Program-made: the position numbers and the translations under genes | Source of the DNA: a virus | DNA: 34,477 nt | Direction: 5' to 3' (one strand) | IMG/VR virus record: IMGVR_UViG_3300021952_000021 | Span: 1-34,477 of that record | Shown here: one piece after another, positions 27,669 to 34,477 of the stretch | How positions within the stretch are numbered: position 1 is the stretch's first letter | Layout of the letters: each line of letters begins with the position of its first letter | The notes under the pieces: generated by a model | Databases searched by the model: none | Told to the model about the DNA's origin: nothing | Seen by the model: only the letters and a program-made list of their open reading frames with translations

Positions 27669-27881
27669 ATGGACGCTATCCAAGTTATCAAAGTGGCGCT
27701 TGCGGTCATCACAGACAGGCTTATCACAATCATGGCACTCTTGACCTCGTTTGGTCTGGGGTGCTGGACGATGGCAGAGCCGACCTGGGAAAGAGTTGTG
27801 ACGCTAGCAATTTATGTGGTTTTCGGCTATCTTGTAGTCATTGCAAAGGAGAAAAGTCATGGACATGATTCCAAAAGTTAA
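27669..27881 (+). CDS. Small two-span membrane protein, holin-like
   Basis: A 70-aa protein with TTAGGAG 7 nt before the ATG. Two hydrophobic segments (about 5-33, VIKVALAVITDRLITIMALL and following; about 43-59, VVTLAIYVVFGYLVVIA) and a short charged tail (KEKSHGHDSKS) give the look of a class II holin. The endolysin gene lies 1.8 kb downstream, so this is one of at least three candidate membrane lysis proteins in the cassette. It overlaps the next gene by 23 nt. Confidence 0.75.
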   Translation: MDAIQVIKVALAVITDRLITIMALLTSFGLGCWTMAEPTWERVVTLAIYVVFGYLVVIAKEKSHGHDSKS

Positions 27882-28074: not shown

Positions 28075-28427
28075 TGGCTAATAACATTGCTTTTCAGGCG
28101 ATGGGCAAAACGTACCAAGCCAACGCCACAACCACAAGCCAACGCATCAATGTTTTGTCTGATGTGCCTTGTAATCAGTTGTTGGTAGCAAGCCATGAAG
28201 GAACAAGTGGCACTGGTAAGCCTGTGTATTTCACTATTGGCAACTCTTCTGTAACCTGTGTGGCTCCTACCGCTGGCTCTCCGCAATACGCTTTTGTGGC
28301 TGTGCCAGGACAGAACATGGTCTATACAGTGCCCAAGCAATTTACGGCTACAGACGGTTTGTACATTGCTTTCATCACAGAAACCTCTACTGCTGAATGC
28401 TACTTTACCCCTGGAGAGGGACTGTAA
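28074..28427 (+). CDS. Beta-rich small protein, paralogue of gene at 18524
   Basis: A 117-aa, beta-rich, Thr/Ala-rich protein ending YFTPGEGL. The 110-aa protein at 18524 ends YITPGDGD and has a similar strand order, suggesting an old duplication now split between fibre and lysis regions. There is no signal peptide or membrane span. Possibly a virion decoration protein. The stop TAA at 28425 directly precedes an in-frame ATT that may start the next gene. Confidence 0.75.
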   Translation: MANNIAFQAMGKTYQANATTTSQRINVLSDVPCNQLLVASHEGTSGTGKPVYFTIGNSSVTCVAPTAGSPQYAFVAVPGQNMVYTVPKQFTATDGLYIAFITETSTAECYFTPGEGL

Positions 28428-28451
28428 ATTGACCCCATAACAGCCTTTGCA

Positions 28452-28982
28452 ATGGTTCAGGGCGCTATATCTGGCGTCCGAAAACTTTGCGCTGTTGTTA
28501 AGGAAGCCCAGGCAGCGGGTAAAGAAGTTGCCGACCTGACAGGGCAAGTGACAGGCTTTGTCAGCAAAATCCTTGAAGGTAACGACAAGTTACAAAAAGC
28601 AGAACAGGAACTGCGTGCAAACCCTCCTAAAGATAAGAGTTTGCAGGTTCTGGCTTTTGAAGAAGTTGCCAGAAAGATGGAGTTAAAAAAACAATATCAA
28701 GACCTGCGGAACATGATTATTTACGAACTGGGGTTGCCAGGGGGGTTCTGGGCAGACTTTGAGGCTACTTTGCACCGCATGGAAGAAGAAGATAGACTTG
28801 CGAAAGAGGGTGCTGAACTTCAAAGAAAGTTAGCAGAATGGCAACGCAAAAAGGTTCAGGACGACTTAATAGTCAGCGTGGCGCGAGTCCTTACGGTTCT
28901 TCTGGGTCTTCTGTATATAGCTCTTCTTCTGTGGGCAATTCGTCTACATCGGGAGAATCAACTGTCATTGCCCTGGGGTTGA
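28452..28982 (+). CDS. Lysis-cassette coiled-coil protein with C-terminal membrane span
   Basis: A 176-aa protein from the first ATG. The frame opens 24 nt earlier with ATT-GAC-CCC-ATA-ACA (28428). Read as M-DPITAFA, this matches the usual start of a phage family that begins M(I)DPI(T/S)A, and GGAGAGG lies 8 nt before the ATT, so a non-ATG start is likely. The body is helical and charged (about 15-135) with one membrane span at about 139-162, giving a tail-anchored layout like a spanin or holin-accessory protein. A second membrane protein is encoded out of frame over its last 145 bases. Confidence 0.8.
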   Translation: MVQGAISGVRKLCAVVKEAQAAGKEVADLTGQVTGFVSKILEGNDKLQKAEQELRANPPKDKSLQVLAFEEVARKMELKKQYQDLRNMIIYELGLPGGFWADFEATLHRMEEEDRLAKEGAELQRKLAEWQRKKVQDDLIVSVARVLTVLLGLLYIALLLWAIRLHRENQLSLPWG

Positions 28983-29119
28983 TAGTCTGTCTCATTCTGT
29001 TGACAACATTTGTCACCCTTATTGGATTCCTCTACGCAGACTTGCAAGCTGCCAGAGGCGCAAATAAAATGATTGAGAAGAAGATGCAGAGGGTAATAGA
29101 ACGGTGTGACCGTGAATAG
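28838..29119 (+). CDS. Overlapping small membrane protein (or -1 frameshift extension)
   Basis: A 93-aa reading frame in the -1 frame of the preceding gene. It has a Ser/Gly-rich N-terminus (YGSSGSSVYSSSSVGNSSTS), one membrane span (about 43-65, VIALGLIVCLILLTTFVTLIGF) and a charged helical end (NKMIEKKMQRVIERCDRE). Its own ribosome-binding site is poor. The upstream gene contains C-AAA-AAG at 28847-28853 in frame, a possible -1 slip site just before this reading frame, so a 222-aa fusion is an alternative. The overlap of two membrane proteins recalls spanin pairs, but no lipobox is seen. Confidence 0.65.
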   Translation: MATQKGSGRLNSQRGASPYGSSGSSVYSSSSVGNSSTSGESTVIALGLIVCLILLTTFVTLIGFLYADLQAARGANKMIEKKMQRVIERCDRE

Positions 29120-29127
29120 GGGCATGT

Positions 29128-29646
29128 ATGCTTACGTTACTCTCGACCTTGATTTCTTTCCTGATGAGTGGCACTCCCAAGATACTAGAGTTGCTGCAAG
29201 ACAGGTCTGACAAGAAGCACGAACTTGAACTTGCCAGGATGCAGACTGAGCGAGAACTGAAAATGCTGGAGGCTGGATACGCTGCCCAGGCAAAGGTAGA
29301 AGAAATAAAGACAGAGCAGATAGAGATGCAAACCTCTGCGGCTGTCACACAGGCTGTTATAGGCGCACAGCAAGCAGAGATGCAGGCACTGTATGCCCAC
29401 GACGTTGCAATAGGTAAAGGAGCCTCTCAGTGGGTTATAGACCTACGTGCAGCCACAAGGAGCATCCTGACGGTAGGTTTCTATGTCTTGCTGGTCTTGC
29501 TTGACATCGGTATCTTTTGGCACGGTATGGTTCACGGTGCTGACTTCAACGACATGGCTAACCAGTTATGGGATGAGGACACCCGCATCATGTTTGCGGC
29601 AATCATCACATTCCACTTTGGTGGAAGGGCGTTTGGCAAGTCATGA
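29128..29646 (+). CDS. Three-span holin-like protein
   Basis: A 172-aa protein directly before the endolysin, overlapping it by ATGA. It has a hydrophobic N-terminal segment (MLTLLSTLISFLMSG), a long charged coiled coil (about 22-95), a clear membrane span (about 112-131, SILTVGFYVLLVLLDIGIFW) and a weaker third one (about 152-166). This arrangement resembles the 3TM holins known from gene-transfer agents and aquatic phages. Holins permeabilise the inner membrane to release the endolysin. The call rests on topology and context. Confidence 0.75.
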   Translation: MLTLLSTLISFLMSGTPKILELLQDRSDKKHELELARMQTERELKMLEAGYAAQAKVEEIKTEQIEMQTSAAVTQAVIGAQQAEMQALYAHDVAIGKGASQWVIDLRAATRSILTVGFYVLLVLLDIGIFWHGMVHGADFNDMANQLWDEDTRIMFAAIITFHFGGRAFGKS

Positions 29647-30122
29647 ACGTCAGCCCTAAAGCTATAGACATGATTAAGCACCATGAGGGGGTGAGGTTCA
29701 AGCCTTACCGCTGTCCTGCTAAGTTGTGGACTATAGGGGTTGGGCATGTGATGTATCCCGACCAAGCAAAGATGCCTCTTGCTGACAGAGACACTTGCAT
29801 GTTGCGTGAGGAGGATAATCGTACTTTTACGAAAGAAGAAGTAGATGGGATTCTCAGAAGCGACCTTGCAAGGTTTGAACGTGGAGTGGCACAGTATTGC
29901 CCAGTTGCTCTTAGCCAAGGGCAATTTGATGCTCTTGTCAGCTTTAGCTTTAATGTTGGTTTGGGAACACTACAGCGCAGCACGCTCCGTCAAAAGATTC
30001 TTAGAGGCGATAAAGAAGGTGCTGCGGAAGAGTTCTTGAAATACTGTATGGCAGGTGGTAAGGTGTTGAAAGGCTTGCAGAACCGCAGGCTAGACGAAAG
30101 GGCTTTGTTCAATGGCACGTAA
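29643..30122 (+). CDS. Endolysin, GH24 lysozyme (T4/R21 type)
   Basis: A 159-aa muramidase that cleaves the glycan backbone of peptidoglycan. The catalytic triad E-8aa-(D/C)-5aa-T of the family is present as E15, C24 and T30 (HHEGVRFKPYRC ... WTIGVGH), with Cys in place of Asp, as in the R21/P22-like subgroup. The C-terminal part FDALVSFSFNVGLGTLQRST and GLQNRRLDERALF is typical of the fold. No N-terminal signal or SAR anchor is present, so release needs a holin, consistent with the gene just upstream. The end overlaps the next gene by 11 nt. Confidence 0.95.
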   Translation: MNVSPKAIDMIKHHEGVRFKPYRCPAKLWTIGVGHVMYPDQAKMPLADRDTCMLREEDNRTFTKEEVDGILRSDLARFERGVAQYCPVALSQGQFDALVSFSFNVGLGTLQRSTLRQKILRGDKEGAAEEFLKYCMAGGKVLKGLQNRRLDERALFNGT

Positions 30123-33982: not shown

Positions 33983-34477
33983 TCACTTAATTAAGAACCT
34001 ACGTGAGCCAGGAACATTCACCATAAACTTCTGGTAGATGTCTGGCATAGAGGACTGGAACAACTTAGCGTCAAACTTCTCGCTAGTCTTTGCTGTTTTC
34101 CAGGTGGCTAGGACTTTGCCATCTATAGTTGACAGTGTTGCTGCATCTTGCATGTAGCCTGTTATCAACGTCTGTAAAGCCTCTTCCTGAGCCTCTAGCT
34201 GCTTTATTTGTGACTTCACCAGGGCTAGGTTATTACAGGCAAGTTCTACAGCTTGTGAGGCTGTTTTCACTGTCTCTGTGTGTTGAGGGTAGATAAGCCT
34301 AGCTTGTTCTGGAGACTCTGGCGGCAGGGGTGTACCTGCTTGTACATGCCCCCAGTAGGTTGCCATCTCTTTTATGAGTGTTTCTTTTTGTTCGTCAGCA
34401 ATGTGGAAAGGAATGAGGACAAACTCCTGACCACCAAATAGGACAGCAAGATAGACTTTGTCCACACCATAGACTGC
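33983..34477 (-). CDS. YqaJ-type phage exonuclease, C-terminal part (cut by window edge)
   Basis: C-terminal 165 codons of the nuclease whose N-terminus lies at 1-523; the first 124 bases here duplicate 1-124. It contains AVLFGGQEFVLIPFHI (the last core strands), a coiled coil (about 33983+150 to +300, NNLALVKSQIKQLEAQEEAL), and the end LATWKTAKTSEKFDAKLF and NVPGSRRFLIK, typical of the YqaJ phage family C-terminus. The full gene codes for 297 residues when one repeat copy is removed. Confidence 0.92.
   Translation of the reverse strand, partial: AVYGVDKVYLAVLFGGQEFVLIPFHIADEQKETLIKEMATYWGHVQAGTPLPPESPEQARLIYPQHTETVKTASQAVELACNNLALVKSQIKQLEAQEEALQTLITGYMQDAATLSTIDGKVLATWKTAKTSEKFDAKLFQSSMPDIYQKFMVNVPGSRRFLIK
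34354..34477. repeat. Right copy of terminal direct repeat (circle closure)
   Basis: Matches positions 1-124 at 123 of 124 bases. The one difference changes an Ile codon in the left copy to a Val codon in the right copy of the exonuclease reading frame. It may be a population variant caught in the assembly overlap. Removing one copy gives a circle of about 34,353 bp. Confidence 0.93.

Follow-up and report, generated by a model that had tools for sequence, protein, structure and literature searches.

The window analysed here, the whole stretch of 34,477 bases, is a tailed-phage record in which an SU10-like portal, a terminase and a phage lysozyme were recognised through profile matches. The two ends of the record (positions 1-124 and 34354-34477) have 124 nt in common, with 99% identity and 1 mismatch, and look as if they belonged to a circular or terminally redundant genome. 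The locus comprises gene A, gene B, which lies in the -1 frame of A, and then genes C and D downstream. The features are as follows.

28413..28421, + strand: SD-like GGAGAGGGA ahead of the ATT of gene A (anti-SD duplex of -7.4 kcal/mol; row L148)
28428..28982, + strand: gene A, 184 aa, all-helical with a C-terminal membrane anchor, predicted start ATT
28822..28829, + strand: weak SD-like AAAGAAAG 5' of gene B, -0.9 kcal/mol in the window
28836..28841, + strand: codons GAA-TGG of A, which form the ATG of B; codon usage was followed across relatives
28838..28982, + strand: A/B overlap of 145 nt, with reduced synonymous variation of A
28838..29119, + strand: gene B, 93 aa, in the -1 frame relative to A
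28847..28853, + strand: C-AAA-AAG, a proposed slip site, AAA and AAG being 0-frame codons; not conserved
28863..28874, + strand: GACT-TAAT-AGTC, a 4-bp stem with no significant folding
28866..28937, + strand: anchor codons of A (residues ~147-170), hydropathy 2.34 over 19 residues, helical in the AF2 model
28964..29035, + strand: membrane-span codons of B (residues ~43-66), the first part within the overlap with A
29128..29646, + strand: gene C, 172-aa membrane protein, phrog_6637 (uncharacterised)
29643..30122, + strand: gene D, endolysin, PF00959 phage lysozyme

Gene C is probably a holin, judged by its position. In relatives it is swapped for unrelated genes, and the genes following A and B comprise at least three holin-like types and two endolysin types, while A-B is kept. 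Relatives were collected by scans of IMG/VR confirmed by tblastn, in which A was recovered at 67 loci and C at 80, and queries based on B and on individual clades were added later. The contigs are metagenomic, some overlap one another, and all support is comparative. The A and B proteins of the window had no tblastn match among 50,697 named-phage records; distant relatives of A in named phages (MW202462, Limnohabitans phage DC31) were reached via cousins. Among bacterial and archaeal genomes, searched as one per prokaryote species, none was found with a relative of either protein.

The N-terminus of the A family carries the motif DP[IV][TS]AFA, and in the window the residues that follow the ATT are DPITAFA. 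Gene A almost certainly starts at this ATT (28428) and not at ATG 28452, as judged from the sequence context, because a TAA lies immediately 5', GGAGAGGGA is found just upstream and the DPITAFA downstream is family-conserved. No ATG, GTG or TTG occurs between the in-frame TAA and DPITAFA, leaving ATT as the first possible codon. ATT, ATA or GTT starts are likewise found in 17/53 family members with a non-canonical first codon, genes in which the interval from the in-frame stop to the conserved DP motif contains no canonical start. Such starts appear to stand behind a good SD in the window, L175, L179, L180, L191, L194, L108, L142, L171, L172, L013, L043 and L044.

The AF2 model of A is all helical (mean pLDDT of 75) and displays a single helix, from residue 105 to 178, that continues into the C-terminal span. 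The codons of this anchor encode, in the -1 frame, the Gly/Ser/Arg-rich N-terminus of B. The B protein itself combines a basic, Ser/Gly-rich N-terminus with one membrane span and a charged, helical C-terminal tail, in which a Cys is conserved in most members; in its model, the N-terminus is disordered and residues 38-92 form one long helix. The topology of both proteins was deduced from hydropathy, charges and structure models. Profile and fold searches with A and B returned only uncharacterised relatives and no functional match. A has a weak match to phrog_32327, an uncharacterised family that is matched by 19/44 of the A relatives, and the matches from a fold search with A were all to uncharacterised proteins from uncultured Caudovirales (best E of 2.5e-7), while the fold search with B had no match. 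It is likely that phrog_32327 and the uncultured Caudovirales proteins (BFVD A0A6J5KX90 and others) belong to the same family as A; their records as shown note no function, overlap or frameshift. The best PDB match for A, to the syntaxin Habc three-helix bundles with their tail-anchored SNARE layout, was not significant (E of 0.12) and was set aside.

The principal conclusion, to which a probability of about 0.85 is assigned, is that A and B are distinct genes, each with its own initiation site, which have 145 nt in common but are read in different frames. The original prediction of two membrane proteins in overlapping frames was borne out by the relatives, and its coordinates were right: the -1-frame ORF of 93 aa extends from 28838 to 29119 and the stop codon of A ends at 28982. 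The overlap, the start codon and the B protein are conserved across relatives far beyond chance. B lies in the same -1 frame in 48/83 A-family genes with an in-frame anchor, and in relatives at 59-84% A identity its register is exactly that of the window. The overlap is found down to ~20% A identity, with a length of 145-169 nt in most cases, and B begins with MAT or MAA in most members even at this distance from the window. A genes that lack B also exist. In the phage-collection record MW202462 (L152), the annotated start of B leaves out the whole overlap.

Synonymous differences in A fall from 0.67 of expectation upstream to 0.39 in the overlap in a set of 21 closer-related sequences, and from 0.94 to 0.77 in a more diverged set. 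The lowest value (0.20) is observed at codons 132-147, around the start of B, and a drop of this kind was matched by 0/5000 codon permutations. Codon usage at the B start is similarly restricted. Codon 137 of A is GAA in 30/30 sequences with Glu at this position, as against 43% GAA elsewhere, a choice that preserves an ATG, and not a GTG, in the -1 frame; the sole Lys variant uses AAA, which also preserves the ATG. Codon 139 is CAA in 30/30 sequences with Gln, as against 39% elsewhere. When sequences were grouped in clusters more than 20% apart, codon 137 was GAA in 9/9 (P of 6e-4); the counts at both codons come from related sequences and the probabilities are therefore rough. At the position of the weak SD-like element of B, most relatives carry AAAGGGAG, AGAGGAAA or AAAGGA, with duplex energies of -4.5 to -7.6 kcal/mol in most, and the strength of this element lies above that of synonymous shuffles, seldom being outstanding for any single sequence. 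That the open -1 frame is accidental and B not a gene is a negligible possibility. The -1 frame of the window A stays open in 26% of synonymous reshuffles and one genome therefore proves little, but in the closer-related set the part of B lying 3' of the A stop has a dN/dS of 0.04, and this stands together with the conserved start and the reduced synonymous variation of A.

A later start for B, at GTG 28931 or another downstream codon, would make the longer frame a by-product of A codon usage. Most close relatives have GTG or ATG at the codon equivalent to 28931, and in L007 and L008, where A has lost Glu-Trp and hence the ATG of B, a shorter B starts at the equivalent ATG downstream; the -1 frame ahead of it is closed by stops in L007. 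The N-terminal third of B is also poorly conserved. Within the overlap naive dN exceeds dS, and since the protein sequence of B changes quickly there, this third may matter little. A later start is nevertheless unlikely in the window, where the evidence favours ATG 28838: this ATG and the MAT it opens are conserved family-wide, and the synonymous constraint on A is strongest precisely there. GTG 28931 was dropped as a candidate, its equivalent not being a start codon in most of the L014-L047 group. The L007 (1367-2079) and L008 (6001-6713) loci constitute a natural experiment on the overlap.

The original prediction also proposed that ribosomes slip at C-AAA-AAG (28847-28853), ahead of a mini-hairpin. 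Both motifs lie where it had placed them, and the letters of the hairpin are indeed present, but the stem is only 4 bp long and folding of the region does not surpass that of shuffles (z of +0.92). A -1 shift at this site would fuse the first part of A to the span and tail of B and so produce A in a second form. The motif lies in phase, with the shifty tetramer A_AAG inside it; an identical motif is found in L001 and C AAA AAA in L002 and L003, and a sister clade of A very probably shifts at A-AAA-AAG, as described below. Against these points, C AAA AAG is confined in the alignment to the window and L001, and apart from L002 and L003 neither version was found in the remaining aligned homologs, though B and its ATG persist in them. 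Systematic tests in E. coli identified X_XXZ_ZZN or Z_ZZN as the active shift motifs (PMC4066793), and C AAA AAG falls outside the X_XXZ_ZZN rule, containing only the A_AAG tetramer. A search for stimulatory elements near the window motif found no structure and only the weak SD-like AAAGAAAG. In addition, the ATG of B is itself under synonymous constraint, and a stop codon stands immediately 5' of the ATG in the -1 frame of L009, which is open only from relative position 410. Since C-AAA-AAG lacks conservation, departs from the X_XXZ_ZZN heptamer and is not accompanied by structure, frameshifting in the window is unlikely, and a fused A-B product made at this site is highly improbable.

The situation is different in a sister clade of A (L153-L167 and L213-L278, first met as L069; example L154:2501-3051), which lies outside the window and has no B. 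The clade comprises 54 distinct sequences, 37 of them non-redundant at more than 3% divergence. GAGCGTGANNAAAAAAAG is in phase and invariant (37/37 non-redundant), and A-AAA-AAG was present in 47/47 sequences from a second query, whose contigs overlap those of the first search. In every sequence GAG CGT GAN NAA AAA AAG stands directly before the opening of the -1 frame, and in two sequences in which Gln is replaced by Glu the heptamer is retained. The 0 frame has no span (19-residue hydropathy of at most 1.1), while the -1 frame encodes one with a hydropathy of 2.0-2.6 that is homologous to the family anchor (LMYGIHLDYQKSK versus VLMYGIHLSYQEKK of L050). Synonymous differences at the slip codons are 0.13 of expectation, compared with 0.8-0.9 in most of the remaining gene. 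The entropy at the three codon positions changes from 0.49, 0.29 and 1.18 before the site to 0.70, 1.35 and 0.77 after it; up to the site the greatest variability is thus at position 3 of the 0 frame, and immediately beyond it at position 2, the third position of -1-frame codons. In many members the first 13 codons of the -1 frame include no start codon, which makes an independent start unlikely.

Upstream of the site, the SD-like GAGCGTGA pairs with the 16S anti-SD at about -8 kcal/mol with one bulge, and a search for downstream RNA structure found no conserved fold. In E. coli, A-AAA-AAG belongs to the motifs that shift most readily (PMC4066793), and bacterial -1 frameshifting at A_AAA_AAG with an upstream SD-like element is described for dnaX and IS elements, lambda G/GT being a phage case (PMC4066793, PMC5009743). 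The sister clade (L153-L278) resembles the dnaX type in its invariant in-phase A-AAA-AAG, its upstream GAGCGTGA and its two predicted products. It differs in that a lysis-module protein would acquire a membrane anchor through the shift and in that no conserved downstream structure accompanies the site; the window, in contrast, has no such motif. From these sequence patterns, a -1 programmed frameshift at A-AAA-AAG in the sister clade is considered highly likely, the main alternative being transcriptional slippage on the seven A's instead of a ribosomal shift, and it would very probably yield a soluble and an anchored A. The idea of a frameshifted two-form protein is thus not supported for the window and very probably holds for the sister clade at another slip site, where the anchor would be gained and not, as originally envisaged, swapped for another one. 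Phage frameshifts covered by a review include tail assembly genes and the T7 capsid gene, and in the literature no paper was found on a phage frameshift that gives soluble and anchored forms.

The alternative offered for the pair was a spanin-like function. Two-component spanins consist of an i-spanin anchored N-terminally and a lipoprotein o-spanin, and in an alternative form a lipoprotein carries a C-terminal span (PMC6139136). Like lambda Rz/Rz1 (PMC6139136), A and B are overlapping, different-frame envelope genes near a holin and an endolysin in the lysis region. B is probably N-in/C-out, and most members have a Cys close to the end of the protein. The Rz-like spanin phrog_89 is a weak match for one B homolog (E of 0.029), and in L152 a lipoprotein ORF follows B. 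The comparison breaks down in other respects. A lipobox is absent from both A and B, and a window-wide scan for an o-spanin with a signal-peptidase-II lipobox found no convincing lipoprotein partner. When the search for lipoboxes was extended to ORFs downstream in relatives, true spanins turned up in cousins only. Topology and size are also wrong. In contrast to an i-spanin, with its N-terminal span, N-in/C-out orientation and coiled-coil domain in the periplasm, the large and presumably cytoplasmic soluble part of A precedes a C-terminal anchor; the span of B starts at residue ~43 and is followed by an external tail of merely ~28 aa. A does have the C-terminal span of a unimolecular spanin, but no signal peptide or lipobox. 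Furthermore, A co-occurs with true spanins in related cassettes, adjoining Rz/Rz1-type pairs in L048, L155 and L156, and is therefore not their substitute there. That A and B form an overlapping two-component spanin pair, or that B is a short i-spanin, is accordingly very unlikely.

Several lipoprotein-like ORFs were observed in these cassettes. Downstream of A in L155 and L156 lies an Rz-like protein with an embedded, proline-rich lipoprotein-like ORF in another frame (Rz1-like). Small Cys-rich lipoprotein ORFs resembling each other (KCQD..HF) are found in L152 (3644-3847), directly after B, and in L255, directly after the frameshifted A. They are possible o-spanin-like partners, and B in L152, with such an ORF next to it, could be a short i-spanin-like protein, which is offered as a lead only. 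In the window, a 70-aa ORF (27669-27881) has two hydrophobic stretches and a lipobox-like GLGC; it was rejected as a u-spanin because the LGC and the second span are only about a dozen residues apart, which is too short.

B also invites comparison with the MS2-type lysis gene, which lies over the coat gene (PMC5009743), as both are small membrane proteins begun inside an upstream gene in another frame. In contrast to MS2, the phage carrying A and B has a dsDNA genome, and the gene with which B overlaps encodes a membrane protein too, the shared part being its anchor region; nothing in the analysis points to B lysing cells by itself.

The favoured reading, in which A and B are separately initiated, suggests how the locus might work. 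In the window, one late message would carry both genes. Ribosomes would start A at AUU 28428, whereas B would be initiated, as conservation supports, at AUG 28838, which lies within A in its -1 frame. No frameshift would be needed in this genome. A would be a cytoplasmic helical protein held at the inner membrane by its C-terminal anchor, as its span indicates. B would be a small single-span inner-membrane protein, with the basic N-terminus presumably in the cytoplasm and the short helical tail on the opposite side. Because A and B stay together while their holin-like and endolysin neighbours are exchanged, the two may form an inner-membrane complex that works with the following lysis module or regulates it, assisting or timing its action, a proposal with somewhat less than an even chance of being correct.

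As the sister clade very probably makes soluble and anchored A by frameshift, how much A is present at the membrane is suggested to be the regulated quantity. A more tentative and rather doubtful extension is that A is an undescribed lysis-module protein and that its presence at the membrane is governed through its 3' end, by recoding in one clade and by dual coding in the clade of the window, both of which would fix the ratio of A to anchor, possibly for the timing of lysis. On this proposal, the window clade would keep the anchor in frame and read that stretch a second time, in the -1 frame, to encode the separate membrane partner B.

Two uncharacterised phage protein families are thus revealed as a conserved, deeply overlapping unit ahead of exchangeable lysis genes. 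Gene A of the sister clade is a strong candidate for programmed frameshifting within a phage lysis region, with the gain of a membrane anchor as its outcome, and these findings offer a way into lysis cassettes of uncultured phages that are in part unexplained.
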